Assembly: GCF_900143675.1 (NCBI RefSeq)
Contig: NZ_FRFC01000003.1
Span: forward strand, 248,001 to 312,000
Length of the DNA: 64,000 nucleotides
DNA from: Candidatus Nitrosotalea sinensis
GTDB lineage: Archaea; Thermoproteota; Nitrososphaeria; Nitrososphaerales; Nitrosopumilaceae
Reading direction: 5' to 3'
Each line of letters starts with the position of its first letter. The first letter of the stretch is position 1. Position numbers and translations under genes: made by a program. A model generated the notes under the pieces. That model worked only from the letters and a program-made list of their open reading frames with translations, was not told the DNA's origin and ran no database searches. Below are positions 1-15,727 of this stretch, piece after piece.

Positions 1-351
1 AGCAGGAGTGACAGCGCCCGTTCTGTAATCTATTCTGCTTGCGATAGTTCCTCCTGTTGATAAAAGCAGGATCTTGGGAAGTCTTTGATCTGGCTGAGCA
101 TTGTATGTTGATCCTTTTTTTATTGCTGGTGATGCTTCTATCACTATCTCTTTGATTTTATCTAGATCTAGTCCTATGTTGTATCCATTTTTTAGTTTTA
201 AAACAATATGCTGATCATCACTGTGTTCATATCTTGGCATTATTACTCCTGAGTAAACCAAGTCTGCGTGAATCTTGACTTGACTTCCCACCTCTATCTT
301 ATTGTTTGTAAGAAACTCAAGGCCTTTACCCCTATATCCAAATTGCGACAT
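1..351 (-). CDS. gatD: Glu-tRNA(Gln) amidotransferase subunit D, 5' part
   Basis: The first 117 codons of gatD are present; the rest lies beyond the window edge. GatD is the asparaginase-like subunit of the archaeal GatDE complex. It releases ammonia from glutamine so that GatE can convert Glu-tRNA(Gln) to Gln-tRNA(Gln). The visible part holds the N-terminal beta-barrel-type region and then the asparaginase nucleophile motif LLSTGGTIASR near residues 95-105. The start is the ATG at 351. An A/T-rich box (about 370-383) lies about 25-30 bases upstream, typical of a leaderless archaeal transcript. The inserted element begins only 32 bp upstream of the start. The product call is firm. Confidence 0.9.
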   Translation of the reverse strand, partial: MSQFGYRGKGLEFLTNNKIEVGSQVKIHADLVYSGVIMPRYEHSDDQHIVLKLKNGYNIGLDLDKIKEIVIEASPAIKKGSTYNAQPDQRLPKILLLSTGGTIASRIDYRTGAVTPA

Positions 352-383
352 TTATTGGGATTAGTAACGTTATTTTATTAAAA

Positions 384-465
384 TTACCTATTAGCTATAA
401 AGCTCGTTATTAAAATAATCAGAGGTCTATAGAATAGGCATGGAAAAGAGCCTAGTTGTGTTTGA
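384..465 (+). repeat. Left attachment repeat of E1 (82 bp)
   Basis: This stretch matches 11,167-11,248 at 79 of 82 positions (mismatches at 389, 392 and 423). It contains the octamer TTACCTAT, the putative integrase promoter (A/T-rich box about 407-419), and the integrase start codon with eight codons. To the left, the similarity ends abruptly at the octamer. To the right, it ends inside the integrase gene. This is what an attachment site overlapping the 5' end of an integrase gene should look like. Confidence 0.85.
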
Positions 466-1528
466 AAAGTTTGTCAGATCTGAGGCTACTAAAAAGATGT
501 ATTTTTACTACTTTAACACATTTCTGAAATGGGCTCAAAATAGTGTTGAAAAGCTTCTCACCGCTGATGGGTTTTTACAGCTAAAAGATGAAAAACTTCA
601 GGAAATTGTAGAAGACTATATGATGTATCTACGAAGGAGATTATCACCTAATTCCATGCCTGCAATAATAGCTGCCTTGGAACTGTTCTTCTCTATGAAT
701 GACAAAAATCTCAATTTTAAGAAGATTCGGAGGATGGTTCCAGCATCAATAAAGAAGTCTGGTCATACTGCTTGGACTACAAACGATATACGAAAAATGC
801 TTCAAAATGCTGTATCTGGTAGAGATAGGGCCTTCATTCACCTTCTCTCTTCCACAGGTTGCAGAATAGGTGCATTACAGGAGTTAAAGTTGAAGCATCT
901 GACTAACATGTCTGATAACTGTAAAAGTGTGTTATTCTATGAGGGTTCAGAAGAAGAATATCTTGGATTTCTAACTCCTGAGGCAAGCAAGGCAGTGGAT
1001 GAGTATATTGATGAGAGAAGAAAGGATGGTGAACGTATAGACCAAGATTCTCCTGTATTACGTTCATCATATCAAGTAGGCATGCAAAAAGTAAAATCTA
1101 TGAGTACTGCTTCCGCCAAAATGATTGCTATACGTTTAGCTAAATCTGTAGCAAGGAACAAGCAAGGTAAAAGATACTCCGTAATGGCAGCACATGGTTT
1201 TAGAAAGAGATTCAATACTATTCTAAAAAATAACAAGGAAGGAAATATCTCACTAAAAGAAAAACTAATGGGTCATAAAGGTGTCTTTGTTTTAGATGGG
1301 GTTTATCATGATGCAGATGCACAAACTTTGTTTAATGAATTTAAAATTCATATTGTAAATCTAACTATAGATGAATCTGAAGCATTAAGAATGGAAAATC
1401 TAAAGCTTGCAGCAGAAAAATCTGAACTTGTAAAAACCAATGAAAAACTCTCAGATGCTCTTAGAAAGGTGGATGAGTTATGGGCAGACAAGCAACGAAT
1501 GGAAAACTCAAAACTATCAGGTAGCTGA
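440..1528 (+). CDS. Tyrosine recombinase (element integrase)
   Basis: A 362-residue site-specific integrase with an N-terminal SAM-like DNA-binding half (about 1-105) and a C-terminal catalytic domain. Visible catalytic residues are R142 in TGCRIGAL, H252 and R255 in HGFRKRF, H279 in LMGHKG and the nucleophile Y289 in GVYHDA. After the catalytic domain comes an unusual charged helical tail (about 314-358) with coiled-coil character, unlike short XerA proteins. The promoter and first eight codons lie inside the attachment repeat, so the gene stays intact in the left copy after integration. Its 3' end overlaps the convergent next gene by 12 bp. It is presumably responsible for integration of E1 and perhaps E2. 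Confidence 0.93.
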   Translation: MEKSLVVFEKFVRSEATKKMYFYYFNTFLKWAQNSVEKLLTADGFLQLKDEKLQEIVEDYMMYLRRRLSPNSMPAIIAALELFFSMNDKNLNFKKIRRMVPASIKKSGHTAWTTNDIRKMLQNAVSGRDRAFIHLLSSTGCRIGALQELKLKHLTNMSDNCKSVLFYEGSEEEYLGFLTPEASKAVDEYIDERRKDGERIDQDSPVLRSSYQVGMQKVKSMSTASAKMIAIRLAKSVARNKQGKRYSVMAAHGFRKRFNTILKNNKEGNISLKEKLMGHKGVFVLDGVYHDADAQTLFNEFKIHIVNLTIDESEALRMENLKLAAEKSELVKTNEKLSDALRKVDELWADKQRMENSKLSGS

Positions 1529-2746
1529 CTTACCTGAATTATTCGGTTTTTCTTTTTTATCTCCTGTAGATTCTGGCAAGGAAATAGCTAATTTCATACT
1601 GACTTTATTCTGTTTTGTTCTATATTTTCTAGATCTTGTAAGTAAAGACAGAGTATATTGAATCGGACCTGATTCCAACTCATTCAAAAAATAGCTGAGG
1701 CGATAACCCCATGGTCCTTCGCCAAGATAATACCCGTGATGAAAATAGGGTGGCAATTTCACAAAGAATGAGCCATTCTTAAAAAATTTGGGAACATTTA
1801 CTTCTCCATTCTTCCTTGCCTGCTTCAATATTTTGTCATATTCTCTAATAATTTCTTGATTTGATTCATAGTACTCCTTTAGCTCAGCAAAACAAGTTGT
1901 AAGAAAATCAAAAAGTTCTCTATCTTTTACTATTGATTTTATCCAGTTATTCGCATAGGGTTGATTCAACCTGTAGGGAATTAGAAAATGTAATAAAATG
2001 TCTTTTAGAGCACTATTTTCAAATCTAGCAAAATCGGCATTTAACCATTCGTAGTAATGATTTGCAAGGACCAATGCGTCAAATAGCTGATTGTAAACTA
2101 CATTCTTGTCGTTACTCTTACAAAGATAACTCCATTTTCGCTGAATTATGTCAGGAATTGTAACGGGAAAATCCCATAGATGTGGCAAAACTCTGTCAAG
2201 ATCCTCGTCTGTTATTTTTGATTGTAGTTGGTAGACATTAGGATCTACCTGACCATCTGTGAGAATTATTCTACTAGGCGGAAGCTTACCTTCATCTCGA
2301 AAATGCGAAATTATTCCCCATATTGTAAGACGATAAAGTGATTCGCCAATTTTATTTCCTATGCGTTCATTATAATTTGCAATTCTATACGCATCCAGTG
2401 CTTTTTTCCATCTTTCCTTGCCAATACCAGACGGACGACTATAATCTCTTTTTTTGAAAGCTTCTCTTACTGAAAACCTAAGCTTTGGTTCAAGGGGATC
2501 TAGGTTTGGATGGTCAATATGTAATAATTCTCTGTGAGATTCCTCATGTTGCAGGAGCCTTAATTGCACTAGTGTATCTAGATTTTTGTTATATGAGGTG
2601 CCATGTCTGTGCATGGACTGTTTTTTATTAATACCATATCGCAAATTAGGGCCATTTTCAAAAAATTCCTTTAGAATTTTCTTCTGAGCCTTTGTTAGTT
2701 TGGATTCTGATCTAATGGTCCAGGTCAAACTAGTACATTTTTTCAC
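1517..2746 (-). CDS. Unknown 409-aa protein with N-terminal winged-helix-like region
   Basis: The start is GTG at 2746. Residues about 15-75 read as a winged helix: a K/L-rich first helix, then a recognition-helix-like stretch ending in LDTLVQLRLLQHEE. The remainder is mixed helical and rich in aromatic residues, with no motif I recognise. It is convergent with the integrase (12-bp overlap) and divergent from the small RHH gene, with a 50-bp shared upstream region. It could be an element regulator or a DNA-processing protein; function is unknown. Confidence 0.7.
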   Translation of the reverse strand: MKKCTSLTWTIRSESKLTKAQKKILKEFFENGPNLRYGINKKQSMHRHGTSYNKNLDTLVQLRLLQHEESHRELLHIDHPNLDPLEPKLRFSVREAFKKRDYSRPSGIGKERWKKALDAYRIANYNERIGNKIGESLYRLTIWGIISHFRDEGKLPPSRIILTDGQVDPNVYQLQSKITDEDLDRVLPHLWDFPVTIPDIIQRKWSYLCKSNDKNVVYNQLFDALVLANHYYEWLNADFARFENSALKDILLHFLIPYRLNQPYANNWIKSIVKDRELFDFLTTCFAELKEYYESNQEIIREYDKILKQARKNGEVNVPKFFKNGSFFVKLPPYFHHGYYLGEGPWGYRLSYFLNELESGPIQYTLSLLTRSRKYRTKQNKVSMKLAISLPESTGDKKEKPNNSGKSAT

Positions 2747-2796
2747 ACAAAAATATGTAGTAAATTCGGATATATCTTTTGGTGTATTGTATTATA

Positions 2797-2919
2797 ATGC
2801 GTTACAAAACTATTCGAATATCAAAAGAAAACTGGAATAAACTTGTGCAGAGGAAGGCAGCTACATTTGATGACGTTATATCTGAATTGCTGAATGCTGT
2901 GGTGCATAAAAATGAGTGA
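2797..2919 (+). CDS. Small ribbon-helix-helix protein (40 aa)
   Basis: The 40 residues begin with a short beta strand (MRYKTIRISKENWNKL) and continue with two amphipathic helices (about 11-20 and 24-35, TFDDVISELLNAVV). This is the CopG/VapB-type ribbon-helix-helix layout. The stop overlaps the ATG of the next small gene by 8 bp, and Rep follows. By analogy with CopG-type plasmid copy-number repressors it may autoregulate the RHH-ribbon-Rep cassette. No toxin gene is adjacent, which argues against a simple VapB role. Confidence 0.75.
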   Translation: MRYKTIRISKENWNKLVQRKAATFDDVISELLNAVVHKNE

Positions 2920-3070
2920 AAATAATTCAGTTTTTTCCTGTGGTCATAAAGATCCTATATTTCTCATCACTTTTTCAGTTGCAGGCGAAGAAAAAATGTA
3001 CTCTGTTTGCAAATCATGTGAGAATCTAGAATATTTCAAAAAATACATCATTAAGAAAGTGTCTATCTGA
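2912..3070 (+). CDS. Small putative zinc-binding protein (52 aa)
   Basis: A 52-residue protein with a CGH motif near residue 10 and a CKSC motif near residues 34-37. These could coordinate one zinc ion. It overlaps the RHH gene by 8 bp and ends 2 bp before the Rep start, so the three genes are almost certainly co-transcribed and co-translated. No family is recognised. It could be a DNA-binding accessory to replication. Confidence 0.65.
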   Translation: MSENNSVFSCGHKDPIFLITFSVAGEEKMYSVCKSCENLEYFKKYIIKKVSI

Positions 3071-3072
3071 AA

Positions 3073-4056
3073 ATGAGAAATGAAAATTTAATAAAATATT
3101 TCCGTCCTGCCTCTAAGCCCTCTAAGCAAAGTACCCAAATTTTAGCAGCTGTAGCAGCATTTGTTGCAGATTACAAATTTCGTACAAATTGGCTTACCAT
3201 AGAGCATGATGAATGGAAGCTTCCTTGTACTCTAGAAAAATATGATTGGTGCGGTATATGGACAACTTTTGGTTGTCTGAAAGATAAGCTACATGAAATG
3301 CTAGGGAAGGGAAAACGTGTATACATAAAACAATACCAACGTTCCTGCTATCGAGCATCATGTATGGAGTGCTATGTGAAATGGATTGCAAGACAGGCAA
3401 ACAGGGCAACAACAAGAATTGAAGAATATGCTAAGAAAACAAATCAAAAACCAATTCATCTAATGCTGATGGTTAATACTTCTCAGCATGATCTTCCTTA
3501 CAGTCTATTAAGAAAAAGAATGATGGAAATTCTTAAGATGGCCCAATGGGAAGGAGGTGCAGTCATTTTCCATCCTTTTAGATTCAATAAAAATTCTAGA
3601 CAATGGTACTATTCACCACATTTTCATCTAGTAGGGTTTGGAAATCGGGATAAAATTTCAAGAGCATTTGGAAGGTATGGATGGTATGTGAAAATAGCAG
3701 AAGAGAGAAAATCAGTCTTTCAAACGTTTTGTTATCTTCTCTCGCATTGTGGCATAAGAAAGAAGCATCATGTGCTAACATGGATAGGGGAGTTGTCATA
3801 TAGCAAAGTACCTTCTGAGAAAGAGCCTAAAATCACCTGTTGTCCTGTCTGTGGAGGGGATTTTGTACAAGTTTACTATGAGGGAGTGCATCCAATAGTG
3901 CCACCAGATCGGCATTATGAGGGATTGATTGACTCGGATGATCATTGGAAGACAGTGTCAACTGGAAGATGGATTGAGTCTGAAGACAATCGATTTGATT
4001 ATGCTCCGTTTAGAGATCTGAATGAAATATTGAAATCATTGACGATATCAAATTAA
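3073..4056 (+). CDS. HUH rolling-circle replication initiator (Rep)
   Basis: A 327-residue protein with the HUH metal-binding motif H183-F-H185 inside SPHFHLVGFG and a downstream Tyr motif YLLSH with Y221 as likely nucleophile, resembling archaeal plasmid Rep proteins. A Cys cluster (C92, C97, C100) precedes the catalytic core, and a CPVC zinc-ribbon element (257-260) lies near the C-terminus. Rep nicks one strand at the double-strand origin to start rolling-circle replication. It is last in a cassette with the RHH and zinc-binding genes. Its presence shows the element descends from a self-replicating circle. Confidence 0.82.
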   Translation: MRNENLIKYFRPASKPSKQSTQILAAVAAFVADYKFRTNWLTIEHDEWKLPCTLEKYDWCGIWTTFGCLKDKLHEMLGKGKRVYIKQYQRSCYRASCMECYVKWIARQANRATTRIEEYAKKTNQKPIHLMLMVNTSQHDLPYSLLRKRMMEILKMAQWEGGAVIFHPFRFNKNSRQWYYSPHFHLVGFGNRDKISRAFGRYGWYVKIAEERKSVFQTFCYLLSHCGIRKKHHVLTWIGELSYSKVPSEKEPKITCCPVCGGDFVQVYYEGVHPIVPPDRHYEGLIDSDDHWKTVSTGRWIESEDNRFDYAPFRDLNEILKSLTISN

Positions 4057-4079
4057 TTGTTTTAGAATTAGTCATTTAA

Positions 4080-5138
4080 TTGGAAAAGCTTAATTCAAAA
4101 TACAAGGAAAAAGTAACTATGCTTTTATTTAATAACTTAAATTTTCACATAGAACAACCACAGAACGAGTGGCATTTCATAGGCTACACGACTAAATCCA
4201 CTGATGGTAGAATCATTAACATAAAACCAGTAAATAAACGCCAATTTCGTGAAAGCGGTGTAACTGTATTAATGCATGCGATAATAAAATTAACATCTCT
4301 TCCAACATTATTAGAAGATAAATCCATTGAAATACCCCAGAATGAATTATCAGAATTAGGTAAGACTCTGAGATATTTTTCTCAACTTATATCTATCTCT
4401 GATATGTCTAAAGTAAGTATTTCCAGTCCTCATCCATCACAAGGATTCATACCTGAAAATGAAAGTGAAAGTAGATACCTTACTCAATCTAAAGGATTTG
4501 AATTAAAATTAATCTCAAGAATGGTTTTTCATAATAATTTTTTCAGAGAAATTTATGAGAATCAATTATTGGATAGAACTGAGGGTGTAAAAATCATGGC
4601 TAATGCAAATGGTCAGACTGACAACCTATCAAAGTTCAAAGAATTGGTACGATTATTTGAAAATGCTTTTGGTAATGATGGTAGTAGACTGGCAGAATCA
4701 TTATATGCATTTTTAAAATCTTCAGAGTTTGATTATTCAAAAGATGAAATTGCAGATTGGATGGTAACCAAACGGGATGGAGCAACTCACGCAGATAGGA
4801 GAATAACACAGACTCTTGTTCATAGTGAGGATATGAACCAGCACATAGATAGGATACATCAAGCTGCGTATGATGTTCTTTTTAATAAGAAATCATGGGG
4901 TAATCAAACAATTAATAGACAAACCACATTTGAACCTGCACAAAAATTGGAAAAAAATCACCTAGTGTTTATCAAGTCACGTATTGAAAATGATAGACGT
5001 GTAGGATTGACACAAAACGATGAACCGTTCTATTATACAGGATCTGATGAAGCAAATATTTCAATAGACAAGTTTGTTGCACCAAAAGAATGGTGGACTA
5101 AATATTTTCAAAAAGATCCATTTGAAGTGCAAGTGTGA
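4080..5138 (+). CDS. Unknown protein with C-terminal HEPN-like motif
   Basis: A 352-residue protein starting at TTG 4080; an internal ATG at 4119 is an alternative. The N-terminal half has no recognisable motif. Residues about 190-265 are helical and contain KRDGATH (R232, H237), which fits the R-x4-H pattern of HEPN ribonucleases, and ADRRITQTLVHSED follows. ApeA- and AbiV-like defence HEPN proteins show similar R-N/D...H sites. It lies next to the AbiV-type gene but on the other strand. The HEPN assignment is an inference from a short motif. Confidence 0.55.
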   Translation: MEKLNSKYKEKVTMLLFNNLNFHIEQPQNEWHFIGYTTKSTDGRIINIKPVNKRQFRESGVTVLMHAIIKLTSLPTLLEDKSIEIPQNELSELGKTLRYFSQLISISDMSKVSISSPHPSQGFIPENESESRYLTQSKGFELKLISRMVFHNNFFREIYENQLLDRTEGVKIMANANGQTDNLSKFKELVRLFENAFGNDGSRLAESLYAFLKSSEFDYSKDEIADWMVTKRDGATHADRRITQTLVHSEDMNQHIDRIHQAAYDVLFNKKSWGNQTINRQTTFEPAQKLEKNHLVFIKSRIENDRRVGLTQNDEPFYYTGSDEANISIDKFVAPKEWWTKYFQKDPFEVQV

Positions 5139-5207
5139 TACCAACATAGTATCACATGATCATGTAGAGTTATTTCTCACTGATGTTTTTCTACATGTAA
5201 TCTTAAG

Positions 5208-5852
5208 TCATGACTTCAAAAGATGATCAATTTTTAACATCGACACATAAGGTGATTTCCAAATTTCTAGACATTTAGAATCATCTAACTTGTGAGCAAT
5301 CTCAACTATGTCAATTTGCATATCTGCCATTTCTGCTATTGTTGAAGCTTGTTCTTTTTTGGTTATTTCGTTAGGATTGATTATTCTACCCTCACGTACA
5401 TCTACATATAACGAATCGTTTTTTTTATTATGATATTTTGCTACCATTTGAGTGATTTCTTCTAATTGTTTGATTTTTTCATGATAGTTTTTTGGTATCT
5501 CAATTTCAGTTTTGATATACCCTGCATCCTGAGCCATTTGAGCAAGTCCTACGAATGCTTGTATCAATTTTGGTGAGAGCGAGAGTATCTGAGATGATTG
5601 TTGTAATTTACTTTCGTGATTACGAACAAATTTCATTGTCTTATCCTCATAGACAAGATCAAGTGAGATTAAACGTAATAGAAATGACTTGGCAGACTCT
5701 TCTAAACTAATAATGGATAACGCAAAACCTCGAGCGTAATGATTTTTATCTATCAAAAACTGTGCTTCATCACAAATTAATCTAGAATTATCTAAAGCTA
5801 GTTTTGATGCCTTAAAATACAAATCCCTCTTCCTTTTCTTTTTGAAAATCAT
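5208..5852 (-). CDS. AbiV-family abortive-infection protein
   Basis: A 214-residue helical protein matching the AbiV pattern: ARGFALSIISLEESAKS (about 40-56), a basic/His segment FVRNHESK (75-82) and the characteristic strand NDSLYVDVREG (145-155). Lactococcal AbiV stops phage late protein synthesis, and the family has a HEPN-like fold. Its ATG lies 2 bp after the stop of a two-helix membrane protein (5855-6265), so the two are translationally linked. This suggests a membrane-tethered defence pair. The family call is from recognition of the motifs only. Confidence 0.75.
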   Translation of the reverse strand: MIFKKKRKRDLYFKASKLALDNSRLICDEAQFLIDKNHYARGFALSIISLEESAKSFLLRLISLDLVYEDKTMKFVRNHESKLQQSSQILSLSPKLIQAFVGLAQMAQDAGYIKTEIEIPKNYHEKIKQLEEITQMVAKYHNKKNDSLYVDVREGRIINPNEITKKEQASTIAEMADMQIDIVEIAHKLDDSKCLEIWKSPYVSMLKIDHLLKS

Positions 5853-5854
5853 GA

Positions 5855-6265
5855 CTAGGTAGAAGTTCTTGAATTTAGAATATTCATTAGTTCATTAAAT
5901 TTGTCATCTGTATTTTTTTCTGTAAGGGAAGGGTGAATCAATTCAAGTACCCTTCTCCTTTTTAATGGATTGAATCCATCAATAATATCATGATTTAGCA
6001 TTATTGCGTGTTCTATTTCTAGAACCTTTTTGTTTTCCTTTGGAGCTTTTTTTCCCACATACAAGACTGCAATAAGTAGCATTATAGGTGTAAATGTTAT
6101 TGCAATTATACGTGATAATGCATCAGGTATTTTTTCGGATAATGTAATTATTATAGCAGAAAGTGCTGCGAATCCAGCTATCATGGCAAAGAGAAGATTG
6201 ATGGTTTCATGAGGTTTTGTGTAGTATTTTTGCATGTATTGAAGTAAAATTTCTGAGAAGTTCAC
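5855..6265 (-). CDS. Two-helix membrane protein coupled to AbiV
   Basis: A 136-residue protein with two hydrophobic segments (about 22-43 and 50-69), a basic turn after the second, and a soluble charged tail of about 65 residues. It is directly upstream of the AbiV-type gene with a 2-bp gap. The layout resembles membrane effectors or sensors paired with cytoplasmic defence proteins. The family is not recognised. Confidence 0.65.
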   Translation of the reverse strand: MNFSEILLQYMQKYYTKPHETINLLFAMIAGFAALSAIIITLSEKIPDALSRIIAITFTPIMLLIAVLYVGKKAPKENKKVLEIEHAIMLNHDIIDGFNPLKRRRVLELIHPSLTEKNTDDKFNELMNILNSRTST

Positions 6266-6324
6266 AATGGATTGTTCATTACTAACGTTTTATTCTTTTT
6301 CTATCATGCTCTTACTGCTTTATT

Positions 6325-6807
6325 TTAGGATTTGATCGGTGAAGTTTCTTCATATTCTATCTTTTGATTTCTTAAATTCCAAATCAAGAATATCCCTAGA
6401 ATTGGAAAAATCAAGTGTATGAAAAGCATTTCCAATGGAGATAAACTATTAGCGAAATGAAATGCACTGTTGTAGAAGTTGCCTTCTGTTACAAGTAGTG
6501 TAGTAGCATCTCCTAGAACTATAACTAGAGCTGCAGATGACTTGATTCCATATACGTACCAGTTATGTCTGGTTCTGTTTAATTTTGACCCAAGATTTGA
6601 ATAAGTCGTTAACGTCAAATGAAGAATAAGATATACTCCAATTACCAGAATCACAATAGTAGAAAGATATTGTACAATCCACGGAGGTGGTCCTTGATTT
6701 ATCATATTAGATGGATTCAAAGAGTCTAACCACTTTTCAAAAATTAAATTACCCACCGCTAAACCTACGACGAAAAAACAATTATCTCGTGGTTTTTTAA
6801 AAAGCAT
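6325..6807 (-). CDS. Four-helix membrane protein
   Basis: A 160-residue protein with hydrophobic segments at about 11-24, 45-66, 91-106 and 127-144, so probably four transmembrane helices. It is upstream of the membrane protein/AbiV pair on the same strand with a 59-bp gap, and may belong to the same transcription unit. No family is recognised. A role with AbiV is inferred from position only. Confidence 0.6.
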   Translation of the reverse strand: MLFKKPRDNCFFVVGLAVGNLIFEKWLDSLNPSNMINQGPPPWIVQYLSTIVILVIGVYLILHLTLTTYSNLGSKLNRTRHNWYVYGIKSSAALVIVLGDATTLLVTEGNFYNSAFHFANSLSPLEMLFIHLIFPILGIFLIWNLRNQKIEYEETSPIKS

Positions 6808-7053
6808 GTATATTATAATACAATTCCATCCTATTAAGAAAATTGCTCATAAAAGACCATACGTTCCATGTTGAGCAGTAGACATTGTAATGCATCAGGA
6901 AAAAGAATAACTGTACTAACTGGTTCCTCCACCCCCCAAGCTAATTCATTAAAATAGATAAATCTCTCAAAAGCCATACTACTCATTATAACTACTTTTT
7001 AGCTGGATTGAGATATTTTGATCGAGTTTATCTAAAACAACTTACGCAACAAA

Positions 7054-7419
7054 GTGTTGGTAAGAAGAGGCAAGTTCAAACCAAGTAAAGGAGGACCTAC
7101 CTATCTTCCTAGAGATAATGTTAGATTGAAAGTCATTATGTTTCTTCGTTCAGTCAACCGTTCAAATCAGCACAATATGACACAAGATGAAAGATCGGGT
7201 TTGAGAGGACAAAAGTGGGTATCACTTGCAAACATTCTAGATGAATTATGCGAATGGGGATGGATAACTAAAAAACCATCTGAAGATGCAAAGAATGTAA
7301 CAGTATACGAGTTACTTGACAAAGGAAGAGAATTATCTAACAAGTTGGCTGAATTACAGAGTCAAAATAATGAACTGTGGAAACTGGACAGCTTTCACGA
7401 AGTTAAAGTATCTGACTAG
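7054..7419 (+). CDS. Small winged-helix-like protein
   Basis: A 121-residue basic protein starting at GTG 7054, with a TTG at 7057 as alternative. Residues about 24-95 show a winged-helix pattern: helix VRLKVIMFLRSV, a second helix, then WVSLANILDELCEWGWITKK and a strand pair. The C-terminal helix (about 92-110) could dimerise. It is probably a transcriptional regulator of the element. Its 3' end overlaps the convergent TPR gene by 17 bp. About 245 bp upstream (6808-7053) hold no gene I can support. Confidence 0.6.
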   Translation: MLVRRGKFKPSKGGPTYLPRDNVRLKVIMFLRSVNRSNQHNMTQDERSGLRGQKWVSLANILDELCEWGWITKKPSEDAKNVTVYELLDKGRELSNKLAELQSQNNELWKLDSFHEVKVSD

Positions 7420-8287
7420 CAAGTTTTTTGAATCGATCTAATTTTCTTATATTTTCAAAATCTTCTTCCTCTACCATCTCAAGTAGATTTTCTGGCTCTA
7501 ATGATGTGGCCACAATTAAAGCATCTACAGCGTCTTCACCTCTGTTTAATATGGATAGAGTACAAGCTTTGTTATACCAAGCAAGTTCATCAGTTGGGTC
7601 AAGTTTTGTAGCATGTTCAAAATATGTTAGAGCTTCGTCATTTCTTTTTAAATCTAACATCACAATGCCTTTTTGAACAAGCAAATTCAGATCCTCTTTA
7701 TCTAATTTTAATCCCTCTTCGCATGCAACAAGTGCCTCATCATGATTTCCTAATTCAGACAAAGCATAAGACTTGTCATACCACGCATCAACAATGGCGG
7801 GATCTGATTCTAGAGCCTTTATGCATACTTCCAATGCCTCTTCAAATCTATCTAATTCATTCAATACATATCCCATGTTTGTCCAAGCTAAAGGCAAGTC
7901 CTCTTTTTCTGCATATCTTAGTGCTGTTTCAAAAGATGACAAAGCTTCCTCATATTTCTCAGATTCTATGAGTGTAACTCCTTTAGCATTCCATACTGAG
8001 AAATTTTTAGGGTTTAATTTGATAGACTGTTCAAAAGCTGATAGGGATTCTTTATAATTTTCAATGTGATAATATGCAAGACCTTTGAGCATCAAGAGCG
8101 TAGCCTTTTCTATTTTATCATAACCTTCATTGGTAAGATAAATCGCTCTATCGATCTTTTCAATAGCTTCTTCATAATCCGCATTGAAACCAAGAGCTAA
8201 CGCATCCAGAAAGTGTTCAAAAGGATCTTCTTTCATACGAGCCATGAATTTTTTAAAACCTCCTCCTAATCCCAATTTGCTTGACAA
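7403..8287 (-). CDS. Tetratricopeptide-repeat protein
   Basis: A 294-residue protein built of roughly seven TPR units from about residue 30 to 270. Each has the W/A-x2-G/K-x3-Y/L pattern (for example FSVWNAKGVTLIESEKYEEAL and LAWTNMGYVLNELDRFEEAL). There is no signal peptide or enzyme domain. TPRs mediate protein-protein contacts, and such proteins occur both as host scaffolds and as sensors in archaeal elements. Within E1 it stands alone, convergent with the winged-helix gene. Confidence 0.8.
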   Translation of the reverse strand: MSSKLGLGGGFKKFMARMKEDPFEHFLDALALGFNADYEEAIEKIDRAIYLTNEGYDKIEKATLLMLKGLAYYHIENYKESLSAFEQSIKLNPKNFSVWNAKGVTLIESEKYEEALSSFETALRYAEKEDLPLAWTNMGYVLNELDRFEEALEVCIKALESDPAIVDAWYDKSYALSELGNHDEALVACEEGLKLDKEDLNLLVQKGIVMLDLKRNDEALTYFEHATKLDPTDELAWYNKACTLSILNRGEDAVDALIVATSLEPENLLEMVEEEDFENIRKLDRFKKLASQIL

Positions 8288-8329
8288 ATTTATTCAAAAA
8301 ATGATGTGTTGCTTATTATTTAATGGAAT

Positions 8330-8344
8330 AGTACCAATGGTACT
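8330..8344. promoter_or_regulatory. Palindrome AGTACC-AAT-GGTACT
   Basis: A perfect 6-bp inverted repeat with a 3-base centre, between the divergent TPR gene and the small-gene/ParB operon. The size and position suit a dimeric repressor operator. Binding is inferred only from symmetry. Confidence 0.4.
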
Positions 8345-8415
8345 AATCCTCAGAAGAATGTAACTAGATTTCAAACCAAAGATACTAAGACCGACACAAA
8401 TTCTCCGTTTTGAAT

Positions 8416-8441
8416 GTAGTCTAGTCTGCTGAATAGACTAC
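8416..8441. promoter_or_regulatory. Hairpin touching a start codon
   Basis: GTAGTCTA (8416-8423) and TAGACTAC (8434-8441) form a perfect 8-bp stem with a 10-base loop, ending one base before ATG 8442. It could be an operator, a translational control hairpin, or the hairpin of a rolling-circle double-strand origin. The sequence alone does not choose between these. Confidence 0.4.
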
Positions 8442-8684
8442 ATGAATCACAGATTACAACAATATCTCGTAATTGAGATCGGGAAGCACTCCCCTGTAGA
8501 AAATCCAGTAGGAAGATACCTGGTAAAAGAGGGCAAAAATCTTCCAAACAGTGTAACAGAAGACATAGGTGGTTTTTCTTTATGCCCGTCTTATTCTGCT
8601 AAACAGCAAAGAAGAATCCATCGTATCTCTGTCAGTGCATCAGGGAGAAATTTCAGAAATAAAACAAGAGGTTGGGATCAATGA
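8442..8684 (+). CDS. Possible small protein at head of ParB operon
   Basis: An 80-codon frame whose TGA overlaps the ATG of the following zinc-ribbon gene (ATGA at 8681), the same coupling seen through the rest of this operon. That favours it being real. Against this, the second half is Arg/Ser-rich and looks like an off-frame translation, and a strong hairpin touches its start. A second overlapping frame (8569-8784) is also open. No homology is recognised. Confidence 0.35.
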   Translation: MNHRLQQYLVIEIGKHSPVENPVGRYLVKEGKNLPNSVTEDIGGFSLCPSYSAKQQRRIHRISVSASGRNFRNKTRGWDQ

Positions 8685-8863
8685 AGGAAGTTTTGAAAGA
8701 CCCAACATCATGTCCACACTGTGGAACAGGAACATCAGGCAGATCTGCAATCCAAAGTATTTTTGGACTGAGAAGTATGGGTGATGGAACAGTCAGAGTA
8801 CAATCTTGGTGTAAGAAGTGTAGGAAAAATTCCTCTAGAAAACCAGTGGGAGAGTGGAAATGA
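8681..8863 (+). CDS. Small zinc-ribbon protein (60 aa)
   Basis: The start is the ATG at 8681, preceded by GAGGT at 8669-8673. Two Cys pairs, CPHC near the N-terminus and CKKC near residue 45, form a zinc ribbon. The C-terminus is basic. Its stop overlaps the start of the next gene (ATGA). Small ribbons of this type are common in archaeal plasmids and viruses and are usually nucleic-acid binding. The exact role is unknown. Confidence 0.65.
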   Translation: MKEVLKDPTSCPHCGTGTSGRSAIQSIFGLRSMGDGTVRVQSWCKKCRKNSSRKPVGEWK

Positions 8864-9057
8864 GCATAAGGATATTCAACGGTGAGTTAGCTCATCAAAA
8901 TCCCATCTGTACCGAGTGTAACAATCGTTGCTACTCTCTTTACACTGGAGGAAGAAAAGACAAGATAAATGACATGTATTTTTGTAAAAAATGTCAGATT
9001 ATCTACAAGATGCCTGACAAAAAAATATGTGATATGTTGGGGGTTAAATCGAATTGA
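8860..9057 (+). CDS. Second small zinc-ribbon protein (65 aa)
   Basis: The start is the ATG at 8860, overlapping the previous stop. It has CTECNNRC near residues 16-23 and CKKC near 45-48, again a probable zinc ribbon, but is not obviously a duplicate of its upstream neighbour. Its stop overlaps or adjoins the start of the ParB-like gene. A GTG at 8854 would add two residues. Confidence 0.62.
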   Translation: MSIRIFNGELAHQNPICTECNNRCYSLYTGGRKDKINDMYFCKKCQIIYKMPDKKICDMLGVKSN

Positions 9058-9068
9058 TACTTTCCTCC

Positions 9069-10097
9069 ATGCCGTCAATATATGAAGGTCCAAAGGAAGT
9101 AGCATTGAAAGACCTTCAACTGGATTCAGAGAATGTCAGATTCAAGCATCTAGGAACCCATCTGACAGAATCTCAAATTGAGGAATGGCTCTATGATGAG
9201 GAAGATGTAAGAGCCTTGATGAAACAGATTTTGCGAGATAAAGGTATCCTACAACCCCTCTATGTTAAACAGAAAAATGGCAAGTATGTTGTCAAGGAAG
9301 GTAATAGGAGAACCACAGCTCTTAGGAGAATTAGTAAAGAAATCCTTCTAGGTAAAGAAAAAGGGTTTGAGAAACATCACTTTGAGATAGTGCCAGTAAT
9401 GGTTCTCAAAGGCACTGACCGTGAAATTGACATATTCCTAGGCTCGATTCACGTATCAGGTCCTAAAGCATGGGCAGCAGCAAACAAAGCAGGTCACATA
9501 TTTGATCTAGTCGAAAAACATGGTGAGTCATTTCAAAGTATTGCAGAAGACCTTGCAATGACAAAAAAGACTGTAATGAACTACTATCATGCATTCAAAG
9601 CAACACAGACCTATGGCAAAAGACATCCTGAAGACAAGAACTATCTGCACAAGTATTCTTTCTTTGCAGAGCTATATAGTAGCAAAATATTGACAAGTTG
9701 GGTCAGTGAAGATCCTTCAAGGCTAGATTACTTCATTGACTTGATTGCAAGCAAAAAGTTCACTCTTACTTACAAAGATGTGCGAACCTTTGCAAAAATC
9801 ATTGCTACACCAAACCCAAAGAGTTCACAAGCACTAGCTATCTTGGATGCAGAAGATGGAAACATCGAAAAAGCATACGCCTTCTTAACAGAGAGTCAAA
9901 GAAATCTCAAAGTTGGACCTTGGAAAGATCTAGAATCTATCTTGCAGAATCTGAAACAATTACCCTTTGAGGAATTTCTTGCTGCAATTGAGGACAGATC
10001 CAAACAAAAGATTGTAGAGGAAGTGGCAAATTTTGCAGGTGAGATGCAAGAGAGAATCAAAGAGGAACTGGATAGAAGAGGAGTTACACCAATATGA
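9069..10097 (+). CDS. ParB-like partition/nuclease-domain protein
   Basis: A 342-residue protein from ATG 9069; a TTG at 9054 adds five residues and would overlap the previous stop. The N-terminal ParB/sulfiredoxin fold contains LQPLYVKQKNGKYVVKEG and EGNRRTTALRR (about residue 80), matching the ParB box II pattern. A helix-turn-helix region (about 150-175) includes MTKKTVMNYYHAF. No ParA ATPase gene is visible in E1, so it may act in partition with a host ATPase, as a regulator, or as an ParB-fold CTPase/nuclease. Its stop overlaps the next ATG. Confidence 0.8.
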   Translation: MPSIYEGPKEVALKDLQLDSENVRFKHLGTHLTESQIEEWLYDEEDVRALMKQILRDKGILQPLYVKQKNGKYVVKEGNRRTTALRRISKEILLGKEKGFEKHHFEIVPVMVLKGTDREIDIFLGSIHVSGPKAWAAANKAGHIFDLVEKHGESFQSIAEDLAMTKKTVMNYYHAFKATQTYGKRHPEDKNYLHKYSFFAELYSSKILTSWVSEDPSRLDYFIDLIASKKFTLTYKDVRTFAKIIATPNPKSSQALAILDAEDGNIEKAYAFLTESQRNLKVGPWKDLESILQNLKQLPFEEFLAAIEDRSKQKIVEEVANFAGEMQERIKEELDRRGVTPI

Positions 10098-10444
10098 AAT
10101 CCAGACCTATTTTTGAAATCAGTGTGAATGGTCATGTAAGTACCAACTCTGGAAAGGAAACAATCGAAAATTGGAGATGTATTCTTGAGAGGCATTTTGC
10201 CTCTTTACATTGTAGTACCTGTGAAAAAAGAAAACTCTCTGTGGTGTTACGATTTTGGCTTGCACCTAATAGAATATATCGAATGCAGAGAAATGACTTG
10301 GATAATTTATCAAAACCAGTACTGGATGCAATGAAAAGAATAGGTATCATTTGTGATGATTCCGAGATATTTCATTTAGAGGCTAGTAAATTACCTACTG
10401 AAGGCGAAGAAGGAGTATACGTAAAGGTAAGGGAACTGAATTAA
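10094..10444 (+). CDS. RusA-family Holliday-junction resolvase
   Basis: A 116-residue endonuclease of the RusA family. The signature RNDLDNLSKPVLDAM gives D68, D70, N71, K74 and D78, and IICDDSEI gives D88/D89, matching the acidic catalytic layout of RusA. It resolves four-way junctions produced by recombination or rolling-circle replication. The ATGA overlap with the ParB-like gene shows co-translation. RusA genes typically belong to phages and plasmids, which supports the element assignment. Confidence 0.85.
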   Translation: MKSRPIFEISVNGHVSTNSGKETIENWRCILERHFASLHCSTCEKRKLSVVLRFWLAPNRIYRMQRNDLDNLSKPVLDAMKRIGIICDDSEIFHLEASKLPTEGEEGVYVKVRELN

Positions 10445-10504
10445 GAAATTAATCATCTTTTAATTGGAACATAAGAACAGTTCCAGAACTGTCATTTTAT
10501 TTTA

Positions 10505-10978
10505 ATGCCTATTAACCATACCATGTACAAGAAAGTGGAAGCAATGCAAATCCGTTACTTGGAAAAATCACTTGTAATAGAATTGAATAAAAAAATAATT
10601 GTAGAATGGAATGAACGGCATCCTGAGTTGCCAGAATACATATCTGAGTCAGGATCTGGACTTGACGAAGTTCTTTCTATCGTAGAAAAAACAGGTAATG
10701 ATGAGGTAGATCATAAAGACAAAATAATTGTAAAAGCAGCTCATCTTCTTGGTGGCATACCGTGGGCTCAATCATTTAGTGGGGCAAACAAACGAACTGC
10801 AATACTATCTACCACGATATTCCTACGAAGAAATGGATTATCTATAAAATTCCCACCAGAGGAACAACGTGAATTGAGGCAACTTTTATTTAAAATCCAA
10901 GAAGAGAGAGGAGGACTCCAGACAGAGATAATTGATAGACTAATTTTATATATTAGAAAAAATACTAAACCATTATGA
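10505..10978 (+). CDS. Fic/Doc-family protein lacking catalytic His
   Basis: A 157-residue protein with a Fic core. The family motif HPFxxGN(K/G)R appears as QSFSGANKR (89-97): N95, K96 and R97 are kept, but Q89 replaces the catalytic His. Active Fic/Doc enzymes transfer AMP or phosphate to target proteins. Without the His it is probably inactive or uses altered chemistry. Its stop overlaps the ATG of a 30-residue acidic peptide gene. An inhibitor role for that peptide is only suggested by position. Confidence 0.72.
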   Translation: MPINHTMYKKVEAMQIRYLEKSLVIELNKKIIVEWNERHPELPEYISESGSGLDEVLSIVEKTGNDEVDHKDKIIVKAAHLLGGIPWAQSFSGANKRTAILSTTIFLRRNGLSIKFPPEEQRELRQLLFKIQEERGGLQTEIIDRLILYIRKNTKPL

Positions 10979-11067
10979 GCCAAGATGAATCTGATTTCAT
11001 AGATGCATTCATGAAGGAACATGAACAGCTATTCGAAGATCTTGGAAATGAAATAAAAGACTTTTAG
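10975..11067 (+). CDS. 30-aa acidic peptide downstream of Fic gene
   Basis: The start overlaps the Fic stop (ATGA at 10,975). The peptide has ten Asp or Glu residues in 30 and is predicted to be one or two short helices. It could be a Fic partner or antitoxin-like peptide, or simply the last small gene of the operon. No homology is recognised, and it is too short to judge by coding statistics. Confidence 0.45.
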   Translation: MSQDESDFIDAFMKEHEQLFEDLGNEIKDF

Positions 11068-11166
11068 AAGTTTATTCTGTTCTTGTAATTTTTTTAATAT
11101 ATTGTCTGAAAAAGAAGTAGAAGTATTGCTTGAAAAAATGTAATTTAATACGCTTTTCGTAACTTG

Positions 11167-11248
11167 TTACCGATAAGCTATAAAGCTCGTTATTAAAATA
11201 ATCAGGGGTCTATAGAATAGGCATGGAAAAGAGCCTAGTTGTGTTTGA
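11167..11248 (+). repeat. Junction attachment repeat between E1 and E2 (82 bp)
   Basis: Second copy of the 82-bp repeat, with TTACCGAT as its octamer. It forms the right boundary of E1 and the left boundary of E2. Just upstream sits the right-end block GCTTTTCGTAACTT (11,152-11,165), which is absent upstream of the left copy. Confidence 0.85.
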
Positions 11249-11252
11249 CTAA
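11223..11252 (+). pseudogene. Integrase 5' fragment at left end of E2
   Basis: ATG 11,223 begins the same eight codons as the E1 integrase (MEKSLVVF), then a ninth codon and a stop. The putative integrase promoter just upstream is also copied. The remainder of an integrase gene is absent from E2, so this is a remnant or an attachment site carrying integrase sequence. Confidence 0.8.
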
Positions 11253-11309
11253 CAATCCTGAATGTAATGCACAAAAAAGAACTTTTCTTAAGGGATTTGA
11301 TCATTAATT

Positions 11310-12149
11310 ATGGTGTTTTGTAGACATCAATACCAGTATACTCAAGGCTATTTTGTCTGTGTAAAATGTAGAAAGAGAACATATCAAAAGCGAACTCATT
11401 ATAGAAGACGAAAAAAAGGCCCTTGGATTATTTTATCTATAATTGTAGTTGCTGTAATTGCATATTTTGTATTTCATCCAACTATCAACTCATCATTTGT
11501 AACAATTCAAAAACCAAATTTTATTAACATTCCAGGTAGTCCAGCACCAAAAATAATCAAAGTACCAATGCCAAAACTTCCAGTATCAATACCAATCAAA
11601 TTACCAGATGTTTCAGTACCTAATCTTCCATCAATAATACCACAAGCTGTTCCTCCACCTTCACTTGATGAACTAAAGCAGATTGCATTAGATGACCTCA
11701 ACAAGTACAGGACACAAAATGGATTACACGTACTAACTCTAGGAAACGCAAGATCATCTCAGATATACGCAGAAGAGTTGCTTCAAGAAGGTTGTATTCA
11801 TCATATAGATGCTAAAGGTGAGGGTCCTATGCTGAGATACAAAAATAACGGCGATACTATGTTTCTAGTTTCAGAAAACATTGCTGGTGAATCTGGTACA
11901 ACCTATGGAACTCCTCAATCAAGTATTCTAGATGGAAATAATAGAATGATGTATGATGATGCATCATCTAATTGGGGCCATAAAAGAAACATACTCGACC
12001 CAGAACCTGTGTCCGTCTCAATAGGAATTGCCTATGATTCACAAAGACTAGTTATGGTCCAAGACTTCCAAGCAGTTCTACCTAATGGTTATGAGTATGA
12101 TCCTTCTAGTTTTCAAACAGAACCACAAGATCAAAAGTTCTGCTGGTAA
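11310..12149 (+). CDS. Membrane-anchored CAP/SCP-domain protein
   Basis: A 279-residue protein. The N-terminus holds C4, H6 and CVKC (17-20), possibly a zinc knuckle. It is followed by a very basic stretch (23-36) and one membrane helix (about 38-56). A Pro-rich linker (57-115) leads to a CAP/SCP domain (about 117-265) with HHIDAKG, SENIAG and the SNWGHKRNIL signature. Topology predicts the CAP domain outside the cell. CAP proteins act in secretion, adhesion or proteolysis, but the substrate here is unknown. It is one of two cargo genes of E2. Confidence 0.8.
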   Translation: MVFCRHQYQYTQGYFVCVKCRKRTYQKRTHYRRRKKGPWIILSIIVVAVIAYFVFHPTINSSFVTIQKPNFINIPGSPAPKIIKVPMPKLPVSIPIKLPDVSVPNLPSIIPQAVPPPSLDELKQIALDDLNKYRTQNGLHVLTLGNARSSQIYAEELLQEGCIHHIDAKGEGPMLRYKNNGDTMFLVSENIAGESGTTYGTPQSSILDGNNRMMYDDASSNWGHKRNILDPEPVSVSIGIAYDSQRLVMVQDFQAVLPNGYEYDPSSFQTEPQDQKFCW

Positions 12150-12208
12150 ATTAATTCTAAATTATAATAGAATGCTGAAATACTTGTTACTGAATAATTT
12201 TGTGAAAC

Positions 12209-13477
12209 ATGCCAGATGATGAACCAAATTACTATTGGATATTAAGTCATTCTAATCGGCTTCGTCGTTACAAAAATCCAAATAAATCCAGTTATCTGAT
12301 TGAGTTTAGATTTTCAGGTTATGCAAAAGAAGCCATAAAGGAATTGAAAAAAAACATAGCTAGAAACTATCATGTGAAAAGTCAAAAGGTTCCTCACATT
12401 ACACTTGTTGGACCTGTATCAACACGAGATGAAAAACGACTTGTTAAGGAAGTCAAAGATGTTTGCAAGCACTATGAGCTAGTCAAATTCAAGTTAGACG
12501 GATTTGATAGCTTTGAAGATCGTGTAATCTTTGTAAAAATAAACCCCTCCGAAGAACTCAAACAACTCCGATTGGAACTGTATGAAAAATTAGGAAAATT
12601 CTGTGATGTATCAGAATTTGATAAAGTCCATTTTACTTTTCATGCAACACTTGTAAAAGACATACAAAGAAAGTTTGATCGTATTTGGGATTATCTTCAG
12701 ACTTGGAAGATACCAGAAATGGATCAATATGTAATTAGAGTTACTGTAGTAAAGAATTTCAAAATACTTGCTGAATATGATCTTCTACAAGGAAAAACTC
12801 TGGATCGTTCCAAATCTCTTGACAGAAAAACATATCACAAGACTATGAAGAAACTAGGTGAGAAAAGAGAGCCGTCTGAAATCAAATTTGAGAAAATACC
12901 TAGCACTGAAAGAGTTTTCGTATTAAGCGATACTCATTTTGATCATGGTAACGTTATTCGATTTTCTCACAGACCTTTTGATTCTATAAGACAAATGAAC
13001 TATCAAATGGTTGAAAACTGGAACAATACTGTGAAGGAAGATAGATTGTATTTTCTAGGGGATTTAACGTTTGGTCGAGGAAGAAGACCGATAGACTTTT
13101 GGCTGAAAAAACTCGGTGGAAAGATATACCATTTGAGGGGAAATCATGATACTGACATAATTGAGCATGCTACAGTAATACCAAATAGGTATGGAATACA
13201 GTATAGAGATTACCAATTTTTGCTAATGCATGAACCACGTAGACCTTTTGGATATGATGGATGGATAATTCATGGTGATAAACACAATACAAATTTGATA
13301 GATTATCCATTAATACACCAAAAAAATAAGACAGTTAATGTTTCAGCAGAGCTTGTCAACTATACTCCGTTAAGCTTGGAAAAAATTATCTCACTGATAG
13401 AAACTGGAGATAGTTATAATACATTAAATGAAAAACAAGAAAACATTCCTGAGAATAAATGGAAGTTTTGGAAATAA
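12209..13477 (+). CDS. 2H phosphoesterase / metallophosphoesterase fusion
   Basis: A 422-residue two-enzyme protein. The N-terminal 2H domain (about 28-200) shows the paired motifs H63-x-T65 (PHITLVGP) and H145-x-T147 (FHATLV) of RNA 2',3'-cyclic phosphodiesterases. The C-terminal calcineurin-like phosphoesterase has D241-x-H243, GD (284-285), GNHD (311-314), H341 and HGDKH (355-359), a complete metal-binding set. Together these could open a cyclic phosphate and remove the remaining phosphate from RNA or a cyclic-nucleotide signal. It is cargo in E2; both active sites look intact. Confidence 0.83.
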   Translation: MPDDEPNYYWILSHSNRLRRYKNPNKSSYLIEFRFSGYAKEAIKELKKNIARNYHVKSQKVPHITLVGPVSTRDEKRLVKEVKDVCKHYELVKFKLDGFDSFEDRVIFVKINPSEELKQLRLELYEKLGKFCDVSEFDKVHFTFHATLVKDIQRKFDRIWDYLQTWKIPEMDQYVIRVTVVKNFKILAEYDLLQGKTLDRSKSLDRKTYHKTMKKLGEKREPSEIKFEKIPSTERVFVLSDTHFDHGNVIRFSHRPFDSIRQMNYQMVENWNNTVKEDRLYFLGDLTFGRGRRPIDFWLKKLGGKIYHLRGNHDTDIIEHATVIPNRYGIQYRDYQFLLMHEPRRPFGYDGWIIHGDKHNTNLIDYPLIHQKNKTVNVSAELVNYTPLSLEKIISLIETGDSYNTLNEKQENIPENKWKFWK

Positions 13478-13507
13478 TTGCATATTCCAAGTTTTTTATT
13501 TAATAAT

Positions 13508-13533
13508 GCTTTTCGTAACTTATAATTACCTAT
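13508..13533 (+). repeat. Right boundary of E2 and target octamer at the cdc48 stop
   Basis: GCTTTTCGTAACTT at 13,508-13,521 repeats the block at the right end of E1. It is followed four bases later by TTACCTAT at 13,526-13,533. The first three bases of that octamer are the complement of the cdc48 stop codon, so the integration target is the 3' end of cdc48 and the coding sequence stays intact. Confidence 0.7.
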
Positions 13534-15727
13534 AGTATGGAACTGCTACCTTTTCGCCTATCTTCAATTCCTTCTGTGTCTTGACTTTTCTTACTGCTTC
13601 TTCAAAATGCCTCATAGTTACTTTTGCCTCTGTTGCTTGTTTTTCTGCCTCTTTTTGATCTGGATATTTATCAAGAAACTCATGTATGACAAGTGACACT
13701 GCAGTGTTTGCTATTGATGCAACATCAGCACCACTCATTCCATCTGTTGCTTCTGCAATCTTGTCAATGTCTACATAATCTGTATTCTTTATTCCATTTG
13801 TCATAGGTTCTCTGACTACTGGAATCTCCTTTGTGTTTATCTCTAAGATCTTCCTCCTTCCTTCTTTGTCTGGAAGTGGCACAAGTATGATTTTATCAAA
13901 TCTGCCTGGTCTTAACAATGCGGTATCAATCATGTCTGCTCTGTTAGTTGCAGCAAGAACTACTACACCATGTAAACTCTCTATACCATCTAATTCTGTC
14001 AAAAGCTGACTTACTACTCTTTCTGTAACTGCCGTCTCTCCTCCTACACCACGTATTGGTGCAATTGAATCAATTTCATCGAAAAATATTACACATGGAG
14101 ATGCCTGTCTTGCTCGTCTGAAGATCTCTCTTATTCCACGCTCTGATTCTCCAACCCATTTTGATAATAATTCTGGTCCTCTAACTGAAATGAAGTTTGC
14201 TTCACTCTCAGTTGCTACTGCTTTTGCCATCAATGTTTTTCCAGTACCACTTGGTCCATGCAACAATATTCCTCTAGGCATACGATGTCCAAGTTTTGAG
14301 TATAATGTGGGATATTTCATTGGCCATTCTACGGCTTCTTGAAGTTCACGTTTGACATTTTCAAGTCCTCCTACCTCGTCCCAACTAACATCTGGATTTT
14401 CAATGAAAACTTCACGCATTCCTGATGGAGTGACTTCTCTTATTGCATTTTGAAAGTCCTCTGCATTTACTACTAATTTATCTAATGTTTCGGGTGGGAG
14501 TTTTTCATCTTCCAAGTTTAGCTCTGGAAGTAGTCTTCGCAGACACTTCATTGCCGCCTCTTTACATAGATACTCCAAATCTGCTCCTACATATCCATGG
14601 CTAATTGATGCAATCTTGTCTGCATTCACATCATCGCTTAATGGCATGTTTCTTGTATGTATCATCAAAATGTCTTTTCTGCCCTTTTTGTCAGGTACTT
14701 TGATCTCTATCTCTCTGTCAAATCTGCCAGGTCTTCTAAGTGCAGGATCGATTGCATTAGGTCTGTTGGTTGCAGATATGACAATTACTTTTCCTCTGGC
14801 CTCAAGTCCATCCATCAGGGAAAGTAATTGGGAAACAACTCTTCGCTCTACTTCTCCTGTGACCTCTTCTCTTTTTGGTGCAATTGAATCAATTTCATCG
14901 ATAAATATTATTGATGGAGACTTTTCTTTTGCCTCTTTGAAGATCTCTCTTAATCTTGCCTCACTTTCACCGTAAAACTTACTCATTATCTCTGGACCTG
15001 ATATGCTTATGAAATGTGCATTACTTTCATTTGCAACTGCTTTTGCAAGTAGTGTTTTACCTGTTCCTGGAGGTCCGTATAACAAAACGCCTTTTGGAGC
15101 TTCAATCCCTAATTTTTCAAAAATCTCGGGATGTCTTAGAGGGAGTTCTATCATTTCACGAACTTTCTTAATTTCATCAGTTAATCCTCCGATATCCTCG
15201 TATGTTACCTGTGGTACACCACGCAATGTTTCTCCTTTCTCGGCAATGTGAAATACTGTCTTTTGTGTAACAAGTACTGCATCAGCTGCAGGTGTAACTC
15301 CTATCACTTGAAAAGTTAATCGTCCGCCAAAATACGGCACCATTACGTTGTCTCCTTTTATCAGAGGTACACTTTCTAGGGCATCTGCAAGATATCTTTC
15401 ATCAATTGGAGGTATTGCTTCTAGTGGTGCAACAACTACTTTTTCTGCTGCCACTGCTTTAATTTTTCTTACAGCTACAGTATCACCAATTGCAATACCT
15501 GCATTGTTTCTGACCAATCCGTCTACTCTGATAATCCCTTTTCCTTCATCTGAAGGATACAGTGGTAAACATTTAGCAACAGTTCTTCGTTTTCCCTTTA
15601 TCTCAATAACATCACCTGTAGAAGCTCCCAGTGAATCCATGGAATCATAATCTATACGAGCTACTCCTCTCCCTACGTCACGGGTATAAGCCTCAAGTAC
15701 CTTAAGGGAGAGTGCGTTTTGGCTCAC
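13526..15727 (-). CDS. cdc48: AAA+ ATPase Cdc48/VCP
   Basis: A 733-residue protein with an N-terminal substrate-binding domain (about 1-180) and two AAA modules. D1 has Walker [14 protein letters not shown] and Walker [10 protein letters not shown]2 has [13 protein letters not shown] and VIFFDEID. Archaeal Cdc48 unfolds proteins and feeds the proteasome. The C-terminus VPYYR resembles the HbYX motif used to dock on the 20S core. The stop codon lies within the TTACCTAT integration octamer, so insertion of E1/E2 left the protein intact but removed its native downstream sequence, including gatD. Confidence 0.97.

Follow-up and report, generated by a model that had tools for sequence, protein, structure and literature searches.

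A 2H phosphoesterase–metallophosphoesterase fusion on an integrated element at cdc48 of Candidatus Nitrosotalea sinensis: a candidate bifunctional enzyme for the removal of cyclic phosphates

The window, that is, the whole 64,000-nucleotide stretch of the genome of the ammonia-oxidising archaeon Candidatus Nitrosotalea sinensis that was analysed here (contig NZ_FRFC01000003.1, positions 248,001 to 312,000), contains at positions 12209–13477 of its forward strand a gene (ATG start, TAA stop) for a protein of 422 amino acids in which two phosphoesterase domains are joined. The N-terminal 2H phosphoesterase domain (residues 27–205, window 12287–12823, forward strand) has the motifs H63-I-T and H145-A-T together with R177 and E189-Y-D191, and the C-terminal domain (residues 230–400, window 12896–13408, forward strand) is a calcineurin-like metallophosphoesterase (MPE) of the COG4186 type. 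The former matches Pfam PF13563 over residues 43–167 (E 3.1e-18; 66.7 bits against a cut-off of 27), and the latter matches phrog_547, "phosphoesterase", of the PHROGs over residues 226–411 (E 4.6e-33) as well as Pfam PF00149 (23.7 bits against a cut-off of 21.5). A sequence-only reading of this DNA had described a single polypeptide of a 2H enzyme and a metallophosphoesterase with exactly these gene boundaries, and the matches bear it out; the fusion protein is real and intact. Its first 26 residues are an extension of low pLDDT that has no counterpart in the nearest relatives.

The protein belongs to the 2H superfamily by its two motifs, its PF13563 score and its 2H fold matches, and to the calcineurin-like MPEs (PF00149, COG4186 subgroup) by having all of the metal-binding motifs, namely D241-x-H243, G284-D285, G311-N312-H313-D314, H341 and G356-D357-x-H359, with GDKH in place of GHxH in the last of them. 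The Asp (D357) there replaces a first His that relatives usually keep, and Asp is likewise able to bind metal. The earlier statement that both active sites are complete thus holds as to the conserved catalytic residues, but not as to the first His of the fifth MPE motif. H63, H145, R177, D241, D285, H313, H341 and H359 show no or almost no variation across 49–53 fusion proteins from several phyla, and R177 and E189-x-D191, which lie C-terminal to the second 2H motif, are conserved and common to single-domain archaeal relatives. In one small clade of fusions (loci L034, L036, L069 and L077) the second 2H motif is HAA and not HxT, so activity may vary within the family. The fusion scores below the curated cut-offs of the RNA 2',3'-cyclic phosphodiesterase equivalog TIGR02258 (ThpR; 42.2 against 65.7 bits) and of the PdeM ligase-associated endonuclease TIGR04123 (21.6 against 150 bits).

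The structure of the fusion was predicted by AlphaFold2 with 49 relatives at a mean pLDDT of 88.6, superseding an earlier model that was built with 9 relatives (65.6). The best fold matches of the 2H half, at Z 14–16 (best 16.1), are a Deinococcus CPDase, YjcG, Pyrococcus LigT, E. coli LigT and an Arabidopsis CPDase; the top structural matches are RNA or nucleotide cyclic phosphodiesterases. For the MPE half, Aquifex Aq_665 (PDB 1xm7) scores Z 17.7, and LpxH follows at about 12.5. Acb1 is a weak fold match to the fusion (E 3e-4), and matches of the Acb1 and poxin type are weaker than those to LigT and CPDase. The chemistry predicted for the fusion is well supported by its domain anatomy.

The gene lies inside a 13.1-kb island (window 382–13533) at the 3' end of the host gene for the cdc48/VAT AAA ATPase (13526–15727, reverse strand), which is the integration site. 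In nine congeneric genomes the site is empty, with window 1–391 (or 389) running straight into the sequence from 13520 on, and the previous claim that the fusion is element cargo is thereby supported. The left attachment core AATTACCTAT (382–391) is the junction with the relatives' empty site, and the right attachment core AATTACCTAT (13524–13533) at the cdc48 3' end includes the cdc48 stop codon. The island looks like two tandem, related elements, A and B, with the fusion in the second; this division follows from the duplication of both end repeats. The left-end repeat of element A (82 nt, 384–465), which extends into the start of the integrase gene, is 96% identical to 11167–11248, the left end of element B, where an integrase remnant (MEKSLVVFD*) is found, and the right-end repeat of element A (25 nt, 11141–11165) is 80% identical to that of element B (13497–13521) beside the cdc48 3' end. 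Alternatively, the island may be one element with an internal duplication. A position of the fusion outside the element, beyond the repeat at 11167–11248, was dismissed, as the relatives join window 1–391 straight to 13520.

Element A encodes a tyrosine recombinase (integrase; 440–1528, forward strand, PF00589 E 4e-10) and ParB-like, RusA, Doc-like and HEPN_AbiV proteins. The HEPN_AbiV protein lies at 5208–5852 (PF18728 E 1e-24), the ParB-like protein at 9054–10097 matches the PADLOC candidate models PDC-M38A and PD-Lambda-5_A, and the gene resembling Fic/Doc-type toxins is at 10505–10978, near the right end of the element. Element B has the nine-codon integrase remnant, a CAP-domain gene and the fusion gene, and no further genes; it is non-autonomous and would be moved in trans. 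The genome G263 has at the same cdc48 site a diverged 5' remnant of the integrase and other cargo, DUF2283 and DUF3800 genes, and a DUF3800 gene also adjoins the fusion in G338.

The CAP gene (11310–12149, forward strand) ends 59 bp upstream of the fusion, with which it is probably co-transcribed, and its product has an N-terminal Cys-rich ribbon, a predicted transmembrane segment and a CAP domain (PF00188). Such a gene directly adjoins a 2H gene in 13 loci of ammonia-oxidising archaea, including window 11310–12149, L041–L045, L047, L008, L034 and L069, at gaps of −103 to +135 bp; it stands upstream in 12 of them and downstream in one. The 2H protein beside it is single, or fused to MPE, to MPE-NUDIX or to DnaJ, so the link between 2H and CAP is independent of the MPE. 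In addition, when 17 genomes were tested with the Pfam CAP model, 11 of the 13 positive ones had one CAP copy, which makes chance adjacency to 2H unlikely. These CAP proteins are more widespread than 2H, being found in 63 of 250 genomes. No flanking repeats of at least 18 bases were found around the other CAP-2H loci except one pair in L047, and no description of the CAP-2H pair was found in the literature. Variants of the arrangement include L044 (9793–10824), where a 2H protein with a C-terminal DnaJ domain confirmed by Pfam follows the CAP gene, L045 (2477–3334), with a candidate DnaJ that is C-terminally fused to the 2H protein or follows it, again behind a CAP gene, and L289 (1504–3287), where an HD-domain (HD_4) gene follows the CAP gene in place of 2H.

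Single-sequence scans of genomes and viral contigs gave nothing, and a nine-row profile (A1) was required to find relatives. With it, at least 80 loci were found in 84,980 species genomes, and among the matches listed from the profile scan and the genome search, in which the same loci are partly repeated, 73 reading frames have both domains. Fusions occur in Methanomicrobiales, Methanosarcina, Diapherotrites, Woesearchaeota, Aenigmarchaeota, Micrarchaeota, Nanobsidianus, Nitrososphaeria (Thermoproteota) and Dehalococcoidia. The profile matched 102 of 199 sampled genomes of Methanomicrobiales (in about 54, by row count, the match spans both domains), 10 of 150 in the order of Methanosarcina and 6 of 148 in the class to which the Dehalococcoidia locus belongs. 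Within the family of the window, matches of any kind are few and scattered, with 22 of 250 genomes positive and fusions in 8 of these. The closest relative of the window's fusion, in G045, is 68% identical to it; beside it lies an island (L029, 2251–9325) with a probable tyrosine recombinase, a TIR-effector-like protein, a DACNG-DACNH-DAC protein and HEPN_Swt1 (RxxxxH). The fusion gene of G263 (L032, 9083–11650) is split by an insert some 1.1 kb long that has its own open reading frame.

The phylogenetic tree consists of a Methanomicrobiales clade and a mixed clade, and because the fusions of the window's family stand at three places within the latter, their inheritance there is patchy, with likely transfer. 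L036 and L077, from a Thermoproteota genome and from Nanobsidianus stetteri, cluster together, possibly owing to transfer between host and symbiont. In Methanomicrobiales, the fusions sit in conserved chromosomal contexts with metabolic genes as recurrent neighbours. A fusion that is widespread, vertically inherited and of housekeeping character, which the sequence-only reading had set against its own proposal, is consequently approached in Methanomicrobiales, but not in the family of the window. The fusion was found described nowhere in the literature, of which the subscription part was thinly covered.

That reading had also named the fusion a candidate for anti-defence or RNA repair, and had proposed to look for it in viruses and next to RNA ligase genes. 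Among 50,697 phage records and 72,556 plasmids there was no fusion, the best coverage being about 55% and of the MPE half only; the 2H half was absent from all of the 80 best-listed IMG/VR loci in a profile scan that gave at least 80, and a 2H-directed viral scan found nothing. The fusion family is therefore treated as cellular, though it is element-borne in this genome. A viral origin was set aside, with no viral fusion among the matches listed, although rare viral cases may exist. Moreover, neither the fusion nor the CAP protein matched PADLOC models of anti-phage defence proteins, and no RNA ligase or kinase was recognised among the annotated neighbours of the fusion. In Methanomicrobiales, too, the gene keeps to stable chromosomal settings. 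A viral or anti-defence role, such as that of an antiviral countermeasure, is not supported.

The strongest argument on function is that the two domains are found both fused and as adjacent separate genes in both orders, 2H before MPE in G656 (73 bp apart) and G794 (53 bp apart), and MPE before 2H in G1050 (6 bp apart), which points to consecutive reactions from cyclic phosphate through monoester to hydroxyl. In the explanation that we prefer, and to which we give roughly an even chance, the fusion is a bifunctional enzyme that fully strips a cyclic phosphate. The folds and active sites are established computationally; beyond them, the 2H domain, with its two His-x-Thr motifs, would open a 2',3'-cyclic phosphate by hydrolysis and yield a 2'-phosphomonoester, and the MPE domain would then remove the 2'-phosphate to leave a free hydroxyl. 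The likeliest substrates would be RNA 3' ends that metal-independent RNases leave behind, or 2',3'-cyclic nucleotides that come from such ends. One chain would then do a job that is otherwise split between a 2H enzyme and KptA/Tpt1 or a separate phosphatase, and in this host the fusion would be an accessory function, carried at the 3' end of cdc48 by an integrated element that is non-autonomous, and its gene probably shares a transcript with that of the CAP-domain membrane protein. In published work, 2H enzymes are placed upstream of phosphate removal by HAD, calcineurin-like or KptA enzymes (PMC9503650, PMC7824862), so the opening of a cyclic phosphate by one enzyme and its dephosphorylation by another, as foreseen in the sequence-only reading, agrees with published pairs of 2H and linear phosphatases.

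The host lacks KptA/Tpt1, as do 24 of the 25 genomes tested, so that removal of the 2'-phosphate there would call for some other enzyme; KptA is also missing from genomes without the fusion, and its absence is thus not specific. In G045, the next gene after the fusion encodes an HEPN_Swt1 protein with an RxxxxH motif, which counts for the preferred explanation. NUDIX hydrolase is a third fused domain in L069 (2H-MPE-NUDIX), and a NUDIX gene lies 3 bp upstream of the fusion in L050; these links extend the theme of phosphoester clearing. On the other hand, the CAP and NUDIX links are not obviously related to RNA. RNA-end healing or nucleotide clearing is plausible.

It is possible, if rather unlikely, that the fusion instead degrades a signalling nucleotide (a cyclic oligonucleotide, a cyclic dinucleotide or an alarmone), with 2H opening or cutting it and MPE finishing. 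It could then serve a conflict system as off-switch or for self-protection, or be an element-borne countermeasure. Degradation of such compounds is known or predicted for 2H enzymes as well as for calcineurin-like ones (PMC7824862). Furthermore, a nucleotide-cyclase protein (DACNG-DACNH-DAC) and a protein resembling TIR effectors are encoded two to four genes from the fusion in G045, ubiquitin-like E1 genes lie near CAP-2H pairs in G156 and G239, and NUDIX and HD neighbours occur at other loci; however, the signalling neighbours were seen in single genomes. The lack of a viral fusion in the collections searched, the weaker Acb1- and poxin-type fold matches and the conserved metabolic context in Methanomicrobiales also speak against a signalling substrate. 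It is improbable that each domain has a substrate of its own and that their fusion or co-transcription serves some other end, for example control of the CAP protein at the membrane, or control by it: 2H alone, with MPE or with DnaJ behind the same CAP gene would fit it, but 2H-MPE adjacency recurs in both gene orders and both active sites are conserved in distant lineages.

Still more speculatively, and with little expectation of its being right, CAP-2H(-MPE) might be an undescribed mobile module of ammonia-oxidising archaea, in which a membrane CAP protein is paired with a cytoplasmic enzyme that clears cyclic-phosphate RNA ends or messengers. Elements lacking an integrase would spread this module with the help of one resident at the cdc48 site, and it would act under stress or in conflicts between element and host. 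ADP-ribose 1'',2''-cyclic phosphate, a product of KptA/Tpt1, is a very improbable substrate, to be converted to ADP-ribose with NUDIX enzymes completing its breakdown; the Arabidopsis CPDase among the fold matches is active on that compound and the NUDIX links in L069 and L050 would suit it, but its source enzyme is absent in the host and in 24 of the 25 genomes, which weakens this reading.

If the reactions are coupled as we prefer, a single chain would convert an end with a cyclic phosphate to a free hydroxyl independently of NAD in archaea without KptA, and the distribution of fused, split and order-swapped forms makes the coupling directly testable. In addition, CAP as the constant partner offers a first way into the genetics of archaeal CAP proteins, and the apparently tandem element at cdc48 would clearly exemplify the exchange of integrase-less cargo in thaumarchaea.

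Among known systems, LigT/ThpR and other 2H CPDases (PF13563/PF02834) have the 2H fold and the two HxT motifs in common with the window protein, whereas the latter is joined to a phosphatase, scores below the TIGR02258 cut-off and has R177 and E189-x-D191. The COG4186/phrog_547 phosphoesterases, with Aq_665 (1xm7), have the same MPE domain; the stand-alone family is frequent among phages (630 records), while here the domain is fused to 2H and the first His of motif V is Asp. In the 2',3'-cyclic phosphodiesterase/3'-nucleotidase of the CpdB type, a single calcineurin-like enzyme performs both steps; the same net reaction would be expected here on free 2',3'-cyclic nucleotides, with a separate 2H domain added. 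Phage clean-up of RNA ends by 2H and KptA, or by 2H and a HAD or calcineurin phosphatase (PMC9503650, PMC7824862), follows the same order of chemistry as proposed here, but the present enzyme is one polypeptide of cellular archaea, with no ligase or KptA recognised nearby. Finally, the integrated mobile elements of thaumarchaea (PMC6563490), in whose description phosphoesterase, LigT and Cdc48 are not mentioned, are tyrosine recombinase elements in a host gene, as here; the present island differs from them in that its second element is integrase-less and carries a cargo of two genes.
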